From Sulfuricella sp. T08 (GTDB lineage: Bacteria > Pseudomonadota > Gammaproteobacteria > Burkholderiales > Sulfuricellaceae): a stretch of DNA of 56,219 nucleotides. Every line of letters begins with the position of its first letter. Position 1 is the stretch's first letter. The translations under genes were made by a program, and so were the position numbers. This document shows positions 2,659 to 6,984 of the stretch, piece by piece. The stretch is taken from the NCBI RefSeq assembly GCF_000971475.1, contig NZ_DF967541.1:1-56219 (forward strand), written 5' to 3'. The notes below the pieces were generated by a model. That model did no database searches. It had not been told where the DNA came from and saw only the letters and a list, made by a program, of their open reading frames with translations.

Positions 2659-4080
2659 TCAGAAAACCCAGGTCATCTGCGCGCTGAGTCGGTCGCCTAC
2701 TGAACCGCCAATAATTCCAGCGGCCGTGCCCTGGATTTTTTGGGGGTTGGTAAGTTGCGCCTCAGGGTGAACGACCTTGATGTCACGGATTTCGTAGTTC
2801 AGTGCAAAGCGCACTTTGGGGCTGTAGAAATACTGACCGCCCAGGGTCCAGGTGCTGGCTTTACGTTCGTCGTAGGCCGAATTCGTCATTTTGCTGAGTT
2901 CGTCATAGCGCAGGTCCACCTCCCATTTTGGCGCAAATTGCCAGCCCGCTTCCAGGTAGTAGCCGTCGGCCTTGTTGCTGGAATCTAGCGCCACATAATC
3001 GACCGGTTCGAAGGGGGTGGTGGTGGAAGTGGTGCCGCCCAAATCGTTGAATTGCGGCGTGGGCGCCACGTAGATCATACCTTTGGCGCGAATGTATTCG
3101 CCGCTCACCCGCACGCCATGGCGCAGGTACTTTGCGCCGATGCCTTCGCGGATGCGGTTGTAGTCGGTGCCGCCATAGGCGCGCTTGCCATCCTGATGCC
3201 AGGCGTAAGCCATGACGTCTTCCCGTTTCGGGCCGCTGCCCTGGAATACGTAGGCGGCCTGCACGCGGGCCGTCACATCGTGATTGCCACTGTTGAGGTC
3301 GTCACTGAAATCGATGCCATTGGCCTGGCTGGCCATCAGCGCATAGGCATACTCCCATCTGCCCCGGTTGAACCAGTCGTACACTTCGACACCGACATCG
3401 CGGAAGCCGCCAAATGCGCCATTGAGTTTCGACATCGCCATCGGCGCGCCCACCACGGGTGCATGATTACGCGACGCATTGGTATAGGGTTCGACGAAGC
3501 GCTCATTGAGCAACTGGTCGGTGACGGTGGTGAAGTTGATGTAATCCATGATATGGACGCCCACCATGGCTTCCTCGCCGAGCGGGAGGCGGCCCAGGCC
3601 AACGCGGATGCGTGCGCCGGGGATGTAATTGAAAGTCACCGTGGCGTCAGTGAATACTGCTTGCCTTTCGCGGGTCAGGCCGTTGTTGCCGAGTTCGGCC
3701 AGGGCGAAATAGTTGATCTTCTCATCCGTTCCCGGAATCACGCCGCGCACCCCGGGGCGTGCGCGGAACATCTGCAACTGATCGCTGTGGGCGAGATCAG
3801 GACCCACCAGATTGAACAGGGCAGTTTGTCCATTGTAAGCCCGAAGTCCCGCCGGCACTGCAACATTGGCGCCGTTTACAGGGGATACGACTGTAGCGGG
3901 AATGCCGCTGACTGTCCCGCCTTCGTTATGCGTATAGGTTGGCTGGATGAAGCCCCAGAAAGTATAGGGCGCAGCGCCCGGCTGCTCGTTGTTCTGCAGT
4001 TGGAACCAGTTGGTGGCGAATGAAGCGGGCGCATGCGCGAAAGCGGCGACCATTGCGGCCGCCAGTAAGGTTTTTTTCAT
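2659..4080 (-). CDS. Outer membrane beta-barrel porin
   Basis: A 473-residue protein with a signal peptide (MKKTLLAAAMVAAFAHAPASFA) and a long series of alternating polar/hydrophobic strands, ending in the C-terminal Phe (AQMTWVF) needed for barrel insertion. The fold and length resemble phosphate-selective or general trimeric porins, but I cannot assign a substrate. An AGGAGAGGA ribosome site precedes the ATG at 4080. The gene starts 61 bases after the dsrE-like gene on the same strand with no terminator seen between, so it probably shares the ECF-type promoter at 4657-4684. That would make it a downstream target of the sigma factor at 4788. Confidence 0.85.
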   Translation of the reverse strand: MKKTLLAAAMVAAFAHAPASFATNWFQLQNNEQPGAAPYTFWGFIQPTYTHNEGGTVSGIPATVVSPVNGANVAVPAGLRAYNGQTALFNLVGPDLAHSDQLQMFRARPGVRGVIPGTDEKINYFALAELGNNGLTRERQAVFTDATVTFNYIPGARIRVGLGRLPLGEEAMVGVHIMDYINFTTVTDQLLNERFVEPYTNASRNHAPVVGAPMAMSKLNGAFGGFRDVGVEVYDWFNRGRWEYAYALMASQANGIDFSDDLNSGNHDVTARVQAAYVFQGSGPKREDVMAYAWHQDGKRAYGGTDYNRIREGIGAKYLRHGVRVSGEYIRAKGMIYVAPTPQFNDLGGTTSTTTPFEPVDYVALDSSNKADGYYLEAGWQFAPKWEVDLRYDELSKMTNSAYDERKASTWTLGGQYFYSPKVRFALNYEIRDIKVVHPEAQLTNPQKIQGTAAGIIGGSVGDRLSAQMTWVF

Positions 4081-4141
4081 ATGTCCTCTCCTGAAGGGGG
4101 TATTTGAATTTTAATTTGGTCGGTCTACACGCTTTGCCGTT

Positions 4142-4597
4142 TTAGGGGCGAATGTAGGCGTAGCCTTCTTTTTGTTTTTTCATCAGTTCGATCACGCCGG
4201 CCGGTACATAGCTAAGGGATGAGAGCATGTCGTCCTTGGTGAGATTCTGTGCCTTCATGGTGTTCTCGCAGGCGACGATCTTGACGCCGCTTCCGATTGA
4301 TTCATCGATGCGGTTTGCGACAGCGGAATCGAATTTGAGCATGCCTATTCCGGGGCCATAGACCACGATTTCGATGTCGGCGTTTTGCGCACCGAGCTCT
4401 TGCTGTACGTTCTTGGCGTTGTTGAGTGTAAGGTTCCATATTTTCGGGTCGCCTGCGCTGACCTGGAATACCACTTTTTGCTTATCCGCGGTAGCTTGCG
4501 GGGCGGGAGCATCGACGGCCTGGGCGGTGCTCGAAGCGAAGGACAGTACCAGCGCGGAAGCGGCGGCCATGTGCTGGAATTGACGTAAAATTTTCAT
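4142..4597 (-). CDS. Secreted DsrE-family protein
   Basis: A 151-residue protein from the ATG at 4597; a frame open to 4672 lacks a ribosome site, whereas AGGAGA precedes 4597. Residues 1-27 are a signal peptide ending AQA, so the mature protein is periplasmic. Residues ~40-151 are a DsrE-like alpha/beta domain with the family's glycine-rich turn (VVYGPGIGML) and one conserved cysteine, C110, in VACENT. DsrE-family proteins carry or sense sulfane sulfur on such cysteines. The domain is homologous to the C-terminal half of the anti-sigma factor at 5345-6079, including the final aromatic motif (YAYIRP versus WVYIKV). The exact ligand is unknown. Confidence 0.85.
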   Translation of the reverse strand: MKILRQFQHMAAASALVLSFASSTAQAVDAPAPQATADKQKVVFQVSAGDPKIWNLTLNNAKNVQQELGAQNADIEIVVYGPGIGMLKFDSAVANRIDESIGSGVKIVACENTMKAQNLTKDDMLSSLSYVPAGVIELMKKQKEGYAYIRP

Positions 4598-4656
4598 TTG
4601 GTGTTGTCTCCTGTTTGTAATAATTGAGTTGTGGCGGTGCACTGCCACTGCAATTG

Positions 4657-4684
4657 ATGACGGCTGGAGCAAGGCATTTATTCC
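4657..4684 (-). promoter_or_regulatory. ECF-type promoter of the dsrE-porin unit
   Basis: Read on the minus strand: GGAATA, 16 bases, CGTCAT, ending 60 bases before the dsrE start. The GGAAT / CGTC elements and 16-17 bp spacing are characteristic of many ECF sigma promoters. The same pattern occurs in front of the sigma gene itself, in the opposite direction. Confidence 0.7.
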
Positions 4685-4719
4685 ACTTTTTTTAAAAAGT
4701 TAAATAATTCACCGGCGAT

Positions 4720-4747
4720 GGAATATTTTAGTTGGCTGCCACGTCGT
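4720..4747 (+). promoter_or_regulatory. ECF-type promoter of the sigma factor gene
   Basis: GGAATA, 16 bases, CGTCGT, 40 bases upstream of the sigma ATG. It is identical to the divergent promoter at 4657-4684 in the -35 hexamer, the spacing and five of six -10 bases. This is what autoregulation by the encoded sigma factor would require. Confidence 0.7.
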
Positions 4748-4787
4748 ATACTTTAATGTTCAATTTTCAGGCCGATATTCCGATACG

Positions 4788-5348
4788 ATGAAAATCCTTT
4801 CCCTGTTCAGCCGCTCCCATACCTTCCACGACCAATTGGAGCAAAGCCGAGTGCGTCTATATCGGGTTGCATACTCCTGGAGTCATGACGCGGCGCTGGC
4901 GGACGACCTGGTACAGGAAACCCTGGCCAAGGCGCTGAAGAATTACGGTCAGTTGCGTGACCCGGAAATGCTGATTAGTTGGCTGTTCAGCATTTTGACC
5001 AACTGCTGGCGCGATCATTTCCGGCAGCACCGAGAGATGGAGGATATTGATGAAATTGAGGATTACCGCTGTGTGCACGAAACCACACCTGAAGATGAGC
5101 ATGCGCAGACCCAGGTTGTGGGCCGGGTGCGCGGGGCGGTAGCCAGGCTCGCGCTGGGCCAGCGCCAGGTGCTGACGCTGGTGGATCTGGAAGAGTTTTC
5201 CTATGCCGAGGTCGCTACTATTCTGGAGATTCCGGTCGGTACCGTGATGAGCCGCTTGTGTCGTGCGAGACGGGCGTTGAAGGAGATGTTGCAGGAACTT
5301 GCACCAGTGCAGTCCGCGCAGATCAGCCATATCAGGAGAGTCAAGTGA
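4788..5348 (+). CDS. ECF-family RNA polymerase sigma factor
   Basis: A 186-residue protein with the two conserved ECF regions. Sigma region 2 (about residues 20-90) includes LYRVAYSWSHD and ADDLVQETLAKALKN. Region 4 (about 120-170) includes the helix-turn-helix FSYAEVATILEIPVGTVMSRLCRARRALK. The acidic linker between them is normal. The gene overlaps the anti-sigma gene by four bases (GTGA), so the two are translationally coupled. Matching ECF promoters before this gene and the divergent dsrE gene point to autoregulation and a local regulon of at least dsrE and the porin. The ECF subgroup cannot be settled from sequence alone. Confidence 0.93.
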   Translation: MKILSLFSRSHTFHDQLEQSRVRLYRVAYSWSHDAALADDLVQETLAKALKNYGQLRDPEMLISWLFSILTNCWRDHFRQHREMEDIDEIEDYRCVHETTPEDEHAQTQVVGRVRGAVARLALGQRQVLTLVDLEEFSYAEVATILEIPVGTVMSRLCRARRALKEMLQELAPVQSAQISHIRRVK

Positions 5349-6079
5349 AGCAGGATAATCAAGGCGTATCAGATGAATTCCTCAATGCATTTGTGGATGA
5401 TCAACTCGACGGGGCTGAGAAAAGCCAGGCGTTCGATGCGATCGAGCATGATGATGCGCTGAAGGAACGGGTGTGTGAACTGCGCGGGCTGAAGGAGAGG
5501 ATGCGGCACGCCTATGAGCACCCTCCTACCCGGGGCAGATCAGTGGAGAAAGGGCGGCGTTTGCGCGTACCGCTTCTTCAGGCGCTGGCTGCTTGCCTGC
5601 TGCTGTGCATCGGCGCAGCCTCCGGCTGGTTTGCCCACACCTGGACAGGGATGGGGGGCGACAAAGAAATGACGCGCCTGCTCCAGAGCGCGCAGCGCAA
5701 CGATGTCGGGGCGGAGTCCCAAAAATTCATTGTTCACGTGAGTTCATCCAATCCAATCCGGCTCAAAACAGCGCTGGACGAAACCGAGAACCTGCTGGAC
5801 AGCTATCGACGGTCCGGTCGAAAGCTCCAGATTGAAATCGTTGCCAATGGCGGGGGGGTCGATTTGCTGCGTGCGGATGTCTCTCCCTATGCCAAGCGTA
5901 TCGGCTTGATGCAGGAAAAATATCCTAACCTTGGTTTCATAGCCTGCGGCCAGACCATCAAGAAACTCCAGGGAAAAGGGGTGGACGTACAACTGCTACC
6001 GCATACAGGGGTTGCCTCTTCTGCCTTGGACCAGATCACCTTGCGTCTGAAGCAGGACTGGGTTTACATCAAGGTATGA
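5345..6079 (+). CDS. Transmembrane anti-sigma factor fused to a periplasmic DsrE-like sensor domain
   Basis: A 244-residue protein from the GTG at 5345, preceded by AGGAGA and overlapping the sigma stop. Residues ~9-60 form the anti-sigma helical region (SDEFLNAFVDDQLDGAEK), without the usual HxxxCxxC zinc motif. Residues 77-97 are one membrane helix. Residues ~124-244 are a DsrE-like domain placed in the periplasm, with C201 (IACGQT) aligning to C110 of the secreted DsrE protein at 4142. The arrangement implies that a sulfur or redox signal at C201, perhaps passed by the secreted paralogue, controls release of the sigma factor. The anti-sigma role is inferred from position, topology and the N-terminal pattern. 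Confidence 0.8.
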   Translation: MKQDNQGVSDEFLNAFVDDQLDGAEKSQAFDAIEHDDALKERVCELRGLKERMRHAYEHPPTRGRSVEKGRRLRVPLLQALAACLLLCIGAASGWFAHTWTGMGGDKEMTRLLQSAQRNDVGAESQKFIVHVSSSNPIRLKTALDETENLLDSYRRSGRKLQIEIVANGGGVDLLRADVSPYAKRIGLMQEKYPNLGFIACGQTIKKLQGKGVDVQLLPHTGVASSALDQITLRLKQDWVYIKV

Positions 6080-6224
6080 GGGTAGCCTGAGTCTCGCCTG
6101 GCCTGCTTATGCATTCGCCGCAATCGTTTTTTGCTGCAGATCGTGGCACCCACCCGAATCAGTTTGGACTCTGCATTCACTTTCCTGATCTATACTAAGA
6201 AATGTAATGGGAAAGGAAGGCAGC

Positions 6225-6281
6225 ATGAATATCTGCATGATAGGCCTCGGCAGTATGCTGCAGCGGCTTGTTCCATGGTGA
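6225..6281 (+). pseudogene. 18-codon remnant resembling the start of 6-phosphogluconate dehydrogenase
   Basis: A strong AGGAAGG site precedes ATG 6225, which encodes MNICMIGLGSMLQRLVPW and stops at 6281, five bases before the pgl start. The first eleven residues match the Rossmann-fold opening of Gnd (typically MxIGMIGLGRMG), after which the similarity ends abruptly. The likeliest reading is the 5' end of gnd joined by deletion to the region upstream of pgl. It may still serve as a translational lead-in for pgl. A chance small ORF cannot be excluded. Confidence 0.5.
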
Positions 6282-6285
6282 AGAT

Positions 6286-6984
6286 ATGACACCACCGCAA
6301 CTTTGCCGCTGGTATCTTTTTTCTTCGGCGCAGGACTTGCAGGCTGAAGCAGTCAGCATGATTGCTCGTGCCGCCGAGCAGGCGATTGTAGATTCCGGTG
6401 CCTTCCGTCTGGTGCTGGCCGGCGGCAATACCCCCCGTGCCTTGTATGAGCGGCTGCGAACTTTAAAGACCAACTGGGAAGCCTGGCATATCTATTTCGG
6501 CGACGAACGCTGCCTGCCCGCTGTTGACCCGGAGCGCAACAGCGCCATGGCGCGGGATGCCTGGCTGGACCATGTTCCTGTGCCGCAAAAGCAGGTTTAT
6601 GCAATTCCGGCCGAAATGGGGGCAAAAGCAGCTGCAGCAGCCTATTCCGCCACCTTGAAGCAGGTTGGGGAGTTCGATCTGGTGCTGCTCGGGCTGGGCG
6701 AGGATGGACATACCGCCAGCCTGTTCCCCGGCAACGATTGGGGCCAGGAGATGGACTCTCCTGTAGCTCTGCCGATATTTGATGCGCCCAAGGCACCGGC
6801 TGAGCGGGTAAGCTTGAGTGCTTGGCGCTTGGGCCAGACAAAGCAGGTGTTGTTCCTGGTGACCGGGGAGAGCAAGCATGAAGCCGTGATGAACTGGCGC
6901 GCCGGTGCCAATATTCCTGCCCGCGCCATTATTCCCCTGCATGGGGTGGATGTGCTGGCCGAAAGCGTCCTGGTTAAGGGTTAG
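6286..6984 (+). CDS. pgl: 6-phosphogluconolactonase
   Basis: Hydrolyses 6-phosphogluconolactone to 6-phosphogluconate in the oxidative pentose phosphate or Entner-Doudoroff route. A 232-residue protein of the NagB/SugF-like fold, normal length, with the family motifs LVLAGGNTPRALYERL near the N-terminus, WHIYFGDERCLP, and LLGLGEDGHTASLFPG. The ATG at 6286 is preferred over an in-frame TTG at 6268. Neither zwf nor an intact gnd is in the window, so the lactone must be supplied from elsewhere. It is convergent with pgi, 48 bases apart. Confidence 0.93.
   Translation: MTPPQLCRWYLFSSAQDLQAEAVSMIARAAEQAIVDSGAFRLVLAGGNTPRALYERLRTLKTNWEAWHIYFGDERCLPAVDPERNSAMARDAWLDHVPVPQKQVYAIPAEMGAKAAAAAYSATLKQVGEFDLVLLGLGEDGHTASLFPGNDWGQEMDSPVALPIFDAPKAPAERVSLSAWRLGQTKQVLFLVTGESKHEAVMNWRAGANIPARAIIPLHGVDVLAESVLVKG

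Follow-up and report, generated by a model that had tools for sequence, protein, structure and literature searches.

A predicted DsrE-domain sensor in an ECF26-like sigma/anti-sigma pair of Sulfuricella sp. T08 and related bacteria

A sigma/anti-sigma pair beside a secreted DsrE gene

The 3.42-Mb genome of Sulfuricella sp. T08 carries a sigma factor gene of the extracytoplasmic function (ECF) type, coupled to the gene of a transmembrane anti-sigma factor whose periplasmic part is predicted to be a DsrE domain. Both genes lie on contig NZ_DF967541.1 (C57 in our numbering), analysed from position 1 to 56,219; this stretch of 56,219 nucleotides is called the window below. From left to right, the locus consists of a porin gene and a secreted DsrE gene on the minus strand, two divergent promoter-like sites, and the sigma and anti-sigma genes on the plus strand. 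An earlier sequence-only reading of positions 4,142 to 6,079 had described a self-contained sigma/anti-sigma system with a DsrE sensor domain and a secreted DsrE partner. Its open reading frames (ORFs) and coordinates held when the ORFs were re-examined, and the features are as follows.

2659-4080, minus strand: outer-membrane porin, 473 amino acids, Porin_O_P (Pfam 4.5e-7)
4142-4597, minus strand: secreted DsrE-family protein P0003, 151 amino acids, with conserved C110 (Pfam DsrE 2.2e-9)
4659-4684, minus strand: divergent copy of the candidate promoter, facing the secreted DsrE gene (motif match)
4720-4745, plus strand: candidate ECF promoter of the sigma/anti-sigma genes, GGAATA-N16-CGTC (motif match)
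4788-5348, plus strand: ECF sigma gene, P0002, 186 amino acids (Pfam Sigma70_r2 and Sigma70_r4_2; relatives also lie upstream of anti-sigma genes)
5004-5006, plus strand: codon of the conserved sigma residue C73 (80 of 83 sigma sequences)
5345-6079, plus strand: DsrE-type transmembrane anti-sigma gene, P0001, 244 amino acids, GTG start (alignment, model and Foldseek)
5345-5518, plus strand: predicted N-terminal cytoplasmic anti-sigma domain, residues 1-58 (model helices, weak Pfam matches, conservation of C44)
5474-5476, plus strand: codon of the invariant cytoplasmic C44 (81 of 81 aligned proteins)
5570-5647, plus strand: predicted membrane helix, residues 76-101 (hydropathy peak and model helix)
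5717-6076, plus strand: predicted periplasmic DsrE domain, residues 125-244 (model confidence, Foldseek, conservation of C201)
5945-5947, plus strand: codon of the sole periplasmic cysteine, C201 (81 of 81 aligned proteins)

The sigma protein P0002 matches Pfam Sigma70_r2 (2.5e-13) and Sigma70_r4_2 (1.8e-15), that is, regions 2 and 4 only, as expected of an ECF sigma factor. Its TGA stop is overlapped by the GTG start of the anti-sigma gene at 5345, which bears out the GTGA coupling proposed from the sequence. This coupling is common in the family. In the genome collection, 159 relatives were confirmed, and the best 80 were kept for locus counts; together with the window they give an alignment set of 81 proteins (alignment A1 leaves out L027 and L028, which lie at contig ends). 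In 79 of the 80 loci, the anti-sigma gene is preceded by a sigma gene on its own strand, and the 80th (L116) starts at the anti-sigma gene, at a contig end. The anti-sigma genes thus do adjoin ECF genes, as the earlier reading proposed checking. The start-on-stop overlap is found in 63 of 78 loci, window included, and L110 has about 300 bases between the end of sigma and the anti-sigma match. Three loci (L072, L105 and L085) each hold two complete sigma/anti-sigma copies near one another. A chance ORF or a wrong start is ruled out, as the protein is conserved over 80 loci with no stop in the matched stretches.

The predicted periplasmic DsrE domain and its single cysteine

On its own, P0001 has no Pfam match at E <=1, and the DsrE assignment was therefore tested by other means. 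In a direct BLASTP comparison, P0001 and P0003 align with E 7e-6 (29% identity over 84 columns), with C201 opposite C110. A hidden Markov model (HMM) built from secreted DsrE proteins only matches 84 of 84 anti-sigma proteins from the window and the 80 loci at E <=8.4e-9, and the Pfam DsrE family itself is matched by 20 of 56 family members scanned singly (E <=0.1, best 1.2e-7). A family-profile search of the PDB retrieved MTH1491 (1l1s) at 8e-17. The same protein is the top Foldseek match of the predicted domain (E 1.3e-8), with a template modelling (TM) score of 0.90 on the target, followed by ST0148 (2pd2), a designed cage protein that others call DsrE-like, and DsrEFH chain A (2hy5_A, TM 0.61). 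The AlphaFold2 model, made with 56 relatives, is confident within the domain (predicted local distance difference test 93-98 over residues 131-244), whereas the whole model reaches 86.5 with a predicted TM score of only 0.57. Finally, the DsrE domains of the 81 anti-sigma proteins form one clade in a tree, with support of 100/100.

C201 is present in all 81 proteins and is the sole cysteine after the membrane helix in every one. In the model, it sits at the end of the domain's third strand, directly before a helix. Both C44 and C201 lie outside the search motif LNAF[VI]D[DGN][EQ]L; for the residues of the motif itself, invariance follows from the way in which the proteins were collected. Altogether, sequence HMM and fold search rule out a chance resemblance. 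Sequence comparison and structure prediction identify the periplasmic part as a DsrE domain with one invariant cysteine.

The order of domains given by the earlier reading (helical N-terminus, single membrane helix, periplasmic DsrE domain) is confirmed by HMM, model and Foldseek. A predicted structure lacking the DsrE fold after the helix would have spoken against it; the prediction matches 1l1s instead. The proposed homology to the secreted protein holds for the aligned cysteines, but the supposedly matching last residues agree only approximately (WVYIKV and YAYIRP). The earlier reading knew of no named family of this architecture, and there is none in Pfam, NCBIfam or the literature searched. 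No recognisable paper on a DsrE-domain anti-sigma factor was found, though an entry in the tables of the 2021 ECF reclassification is possible. The word 'DsrE' does not occur in the accessible portions of PMC7406223, PMC8999054, PMC8103513, PMC6180224, PMC6527743, PMC10880074 and PMC3817407.

The N-terminal part is a putative anti-sigma domain. The AlphaFold2 model places helices at residues 10-17, 23-35 and 37-58. Among 56 family members scanned singly (E <=0.1), zf-HC2 is weakly matched by 23 (best 1.2e-4) and RseA_N by four (best 0.016); P0001 itself weakly matches the NCBIfam 'antisigma' model at E 0.052, far short of the cut-off. Zinc-binding anti-sigma (ZAS) domains carry the motif HxxxCxxC. 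There is no conserved CxxC in the cytoplasmic domain of the 81 proteins, since C44 is the only conserved cytoplasmic cysteine, and the domain lacks the ZAS motif as a conserved feature. With C73 of sigma, C44 could form a cytoplasmic thiol pair. P0001 contains a single pronounced hydrophobic segment, with a Kyte-Doolittle value of 2.06 at residue 75, and the 19-residue hydropathy peak exceeds 1.6 in 57 of the 81 relatives, with a lowest value of 1.21. Basic residues precede the helix (by eye), which suggests an N-in/C-out orientation.

Candidate promoter sites, neighbours and distribution

Between the sigma gene and the secreted DsrE gene lies a bidirectional candidate promoter, GGAATAAA-N14-CGTCTTA, and the window holds only these two sites, one per direction. 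A dyad search upstream of sigma found GGAAT-N17-CGTC in 68 of 78 regions (window included), against none in three rounds of shuffling. Among the ten other regions, two are truncated by the contig, six have an N16 version on inspection, and two (L085 and L091) have none. A reverse-oriented copy faces the divergent gene in 46 of the 78 regions. Over the 1.25 Mb of the 80 loci there are 129 sites, compared with 0 for the reversed pattern, and they stand before sigma (66), before DsrE (44) and before other genes (19). In eight of these 19, the wrong frame had been chosen over sigma or DsrE, and five of the wrong-frame targets are long ORFs in the anti-sigma frame matching the DsrE HMM. Eight others are usable. 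Four lead to SoxY (L055 and L095, both above the NCBIfam cut-off; L058 and L061, by resemblance), one to SoxX (L120, above the cut-off), and one each to a SoxB-like protein (L066) and a TsuA-like transporter (L063), neither of which reaches the cut-off; the eighth, in L056, precedes a DsrE gene (HMM E 3e-10). The remaining sites are in L085, with an adenylyltransferase-like neighbour (by eye), and in L108 and L123, both without explanation.

The sites extend beyond the locus, and 'self-contained' is therefore too narrow a description of the system. In the genome of T08 itself, a loose pattern (GGAATA-N15..17-CGTC) gave 12 matches against 10 for the control and was tightened afterwards. The strict pattern gave 41 sites in 43 genomes with the system (29 of the 43 have a match; two control matches) and five sites in 43 genomes chosen as lacking it (4 of 43 genomes; no control match), two of the five belonging to a divergent system in genome G277, described below. 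Among the remote sites, one in G086 and one in G262 stand before DsrE genes (HMM E 1e-36 and 3e-37). Others precede a gene for a secreted haloacid-dehalogenase-type protein and one for a sulfate-type substrate-binding protein (below the cut-off); by eye, further targets include genes for thioredoxin-like and GGDEF-type proteins, and some sites have no plausible gene behind them. The one strict site of the T08 genome lies 106 bases before the gene of a YeiH-family putative sulfate exporter (L135/L167; G000 contig C67, 88452), with YeiH below the cut-off. As a conserved regulon member YeiH was rejected: G004 lacks the site in front of its 97%-identical gene, and it is also missing from four further relatives examined, only one of which (G002) carries the sigma/anti-sigma system.

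P0003 begins with a Sec-type signal sequence (by eye), and its C110 is found in 77 of 78 aligned rows, the remaining row being a gap. The earlier reading had asked whether the anti-sigma gene always adjoins a secreted DsrE gene. It does not: there is one within 1.5 kb in 47 of the 66 loci with enough flank, window included (48 with L075). Moreover, the sigma-adjacent secreted DsrE proteins fall into three well-supported groups of the tree, against the single clade of the anti-sigma domains. As a common but not universal neighbour, the secreted protein is probably not an obligatory ligand. It looks more like a regulon member, possibly a carrier or a source of feedback, since three partner groups face one sensor clade and the promoter precedes soxY, soxB-like or TsuA-like genes instead in some loci. 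Where present, it may still bind the anti-sigma factor. In the window, the porin gene follows the secreted DsrE gene after 61 bases and is probably co-transcribed with it; porin relatives occur in 28 of the 81 loci, at a median of 2.6 kb to the left of the anti-sigma gene. Farther away, at 318-852, a minus-strand pair of small genes resembles a RelE/Phd-type toxin-antitoxin pair by eye and is putative as such.

A near full-length match to the anti-sigma protein (E about 1e-20 or better, at least 200 residues covered) was found in 37 of 300 sampled genomes of the order, and a Sulfuricella metagenome-assembled genome encodes a protein 90% identical to P0001. Culturable carriers in the genome collection include Sulfuriferula multivorans, Sulfurisoma sediminicola, Thiohalobacter thiocyanaticus and Parasulfuritortus cantonensis. 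The system genomes stand out by their sulfur genes. A soxB gene above the cut-off is present in 36 of the 37 (G018 being the sole one without it) and in 103 of the 263 others (Fisher p 1.3e-12, a value that ignores phylogeny), and for dsrA (E <=1e-50) the counts are 31 of 37 against 33 of 263 (p 1.3e-18, with the same limit). By hand comparison of positions, soxB and the anti-sigma gene are less than 5 kb apart in 11 of the 37 genomes; a flanking sox or TsuA-like gene is present at 13 of the 81 loci (window included). The link to sulfur chemistry drawn in the earlier reading is supported by this co-occurrence and by the sox genes behind the same promoter.

In the phylum as a whole, the system is rare. 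At least 3 of 398 genomes sampled across the phylum have a full-length match (a lower bound, as the scan scored at most seven candidates per genome), and a wide spread in the phylum was rejected. Other matches cover the DsrE part, some with a membrane helix, or in two cases the N-terminal half only; of 12 such loci, the five inspected all encode DsrE proteins that have no anti-sigma N-terminus. Elsewhere in the phylum (L189, L193, L196 and L200), there are DsrE proteins with signal-like N-termini (by eye), a C-terminal W-S-Y-L-R-P end and no anti-sigma fusion. A plasmid-borne system was likewise rejected: 0 of 72,556 plasmid records cover 80% of P0001, and eight match the DsrE part only.

One distant pair deserves separate mention. 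In G277 (L185, about 3400-6340), a DsrE-type anti-sigma/sigma pair is divergent from MsrP, with the same promoter on both sides. Its anti-sigma protein has no C44 but keeps the DsrE cysteine. The domain falls outside the anti-sigma clade on a long branch, which leaves its origin unsure; the pair may be an independent fusion. The MsrP gene has a cytochrome b561-like neighbour (by eye). A second ECF sigma/anti-sigma pair in the T08 genome (L002, contig C54) has a similar anti-sigma N-terminus and stands beside a small secreted protein. The anti-sigma factors beside related sigma genes in L002, L211 and L212 have no match to the DsrE HMM.

Relation to known systems and possible mechanism

The closest known counterparts are the ECF26 systems, a resemblance that the sequence-only reading missed. 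ECF26 sigma factors are described as controlling sulfite oxidation in alphaproteobacteria, with sulfite oxidase genes among the targets. Compounds that generate sulfite elicit a response from RpoE1/RpoE4 of Sinorhizobium meliloti and from SigE of Starkeya novella, and RpoE1 of S. novella responds to tetrathionate (PMC3511301, PMC6180224, PMC6527743). The reported promoter consensus is GGAAT(A) at -35 and CGTC at -10 (PMC6527743, PMC6180224), the pattern seen here in the 68 of 78 regions. The architecture also agrees, as in the RpoE1/RpoE4/RpoE6-EcfR systems a sigma gene is followed by an anti-sigma gene for an N-terminal domain, a membrane helix and a periplasmic part. The published promoter sequences of S. 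meliloti RpoE6 served to locate its gene on pSymA; the window sigma is 37% identical to RpoE6 over 143 residues, and the N-terminus of the RpoE6 anti-sigma factor matches our family HMM at E 8e-7. That anti-sigma factor has no match to the DsrE HMM, and the periplasmic domains of EcfR proteins are described in PMC6180224 as somewhat RsiW-like. The targets differ, being apparently sox, secreted DsrE/porin and transporter genes here. By promoter, architecture and identity to RpoE6, the system appears ECF26-like. The simplest history would be an ECF26-like pair whose sensor part became a DsrE domain, as the RpoE6 anti-sigma factor shares the N-terminus without a DsrE match, and those in L002, L211 and L212 have no DsrE match either.

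The second comparison is with DsrE/DsrF/TusD sulfur carriers (DsrEFH, DsrE3A, MTH1491), which share the conserved cysteine and, according to the predicted model, the fold. Known carriers of this type are soluble cytoplasmic proteins, whereas the domain here is predicted to lie in the periplasm, as part of a protein that also has a membrane helix and an anti-sigma domain. Control of thiosulfate oxidation in response to sulfane sulfur is also reported for SoxR and sHdrR (PMC12423496), which as ArsR-type transcriptional repressors belong to another protein class. ECF/anti-sigma pairs that alter sox gene expression are reported in PMC3445524, in whose main text the word DsrE is absent.

Taken together, sequence and model comparison give a predicted architecture, a lone invariant C201, an overlapping sigma gene and a shared promoter motif with linkage to sulfur genes. 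We lean towards an ECF26-like switch with a DsrE sensor, in which a periplasmic sulfur species on C201 would free sigma for a sulfur-handling regulon. For the chemical signal, the binding of sigma, the use of the promoter and the mode of release, we infer the following course. In the resting cell, the N-terminal domain would hold sigma at the membrane. While the cell oxidises thiosulfate, sulfide or tetrathionate, C201 would take up a sulfur species of the periplasm (sulfane sulfur/polysulfide, tetrathionate or sulfite), in analogy to thiosulfate from tetrathionate on archaeal DsrE3A. Such loading is plausible because DsrE3A forms a Cys-S-thiosulfonate with tetrathionate, accepting thiosulfate on its cysteine (PMC4175335). 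The loaded domain may then change its shape, oligomer state or protease sensitivity, and the freed sigma would transcribe its own operon and a small periplasmic sulfur-handling regulon. In some species this regulon would comprise a secreted DsrE carrier together with a porin, in others sox genes or a transporter of the thiosulfate type. The secreted carrier may bind the same sulfur species and provide feedback, as an output rather than a required part of the sensor. More tentatively, the system could sit at a branch point of a sulfur relay, with SoxYZ or the secreted DsrE protein handing a persulfide or thiosulfonate to C201, so that the cell would read the loading of a carrier and not a free molecule; this is possible, though we would not expect it.

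Several observations weigh against a sulfur switch at C201. A single cysteine fits a persulfide, thiosulfonate, S-sulfonate, sulfenate or intermolecular disulfide equally well, and the invariant C44 and the conserved sigma C73 have no part in the model. The associations with soxB and dsrA ignore phylogeny, and 14 of the 43 system genomes have no strict site. In the T08 genome, neither pattern search found a site on the soxB contig (C50), and the only strict site, before YeiH, is not kept upstream of the G004 gene. In G277, the pair is a neighbour of the methionine-sulfoxide reductase MsrP, which hints at a redox signal in that case. In the literature searched, no experiment on any family member was found.

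The rival explanations draw on the same observations. The secreted DsrE protein might pick up sulfur and bind the anti-sigma DsrE domain, as a hetero-oligomer or through a C110-C201 disulfide, so as to release or restrain sigma, close to the decoy or ligand role proposed in the earlier reading. DsrE-type proteins such as DsrEFH do form oligomers, and the homologous domains, their aligned cysteines, the adjacency in 47 of 66 loci and the shared bidirectional promoter all fit. However, 19 of the 66 loci have no adjacent DsrE gene by script (L075 really has one, and DsrE genes elsewhere in the genomes are possible), the partners belong to three groups of the tree as against a single clade of sensor domains, and in some species the promoter targets are sox genes in place of DsrE. 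We thus consider this role unlikely, and an output of the regulon describes the secreted protein better.

Alternatively, oxidants or species of the hypochlorous type in the periplasm could convert C201 to a sulfenate or a mixed disulfide, and the link to sulfur oxidisers would be indirect. A single cysteine suits oxidation too, C44 and sigma C73 could be redox-active, and the divergent G277 relative stands beside MsrP under the same promoter; that relative is only distantly related and lacks C44, though, and the main family is tied to genomes with soxB and dsrA and has its promoter before sox genes in several relatives, which makes a redox sensor decidedly doubtful. It is more improbable still that sensing is cytoplasmic, with C44, perhaps together with sigma C73, reacting with persulfides and the DsrE domain acting as an anchor or stability module. 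The conservation of both residues (81 of 81 and 80 of 83) would suit this, but it leaves unexplained why C201 is invariant as the only periplasmic cysteine and why every collected member has a DsrE domain, and G277 retains the DsrE cysteine without C44.

In sum, the observation made from the sequence is confirmed and its interpretation is supported in part, failing on the constant secreted partner and the self-contained circuit. The sigma/anti-sigma pair is a real and apparently undescribed sensor variant of an ECF26-like system, through which the cell probably reads periplasmic sulfur chemistry and turns on sulfur-oxidation genes. How ECF26 anti-sigma factors sense their signal is recorded as an open question in the Discussion of PMC6527743. 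For this sulfite-responsive group, a domain that can be recognised as a sulfur carrier and has just one invariant cysteine would narrow the question to one residue. It would also provide a candidate regulator of the Sox pathway with a predictable promoter in betaproteobacterial and gammaproteobacterial sulfur oxidisers, and an example of how the fold of a sulfur carrier has come to serve in transmembrane sensing. If the relay proposal were true, a sulfur-trafficking fold would have become a covalent transmembrane receptor.

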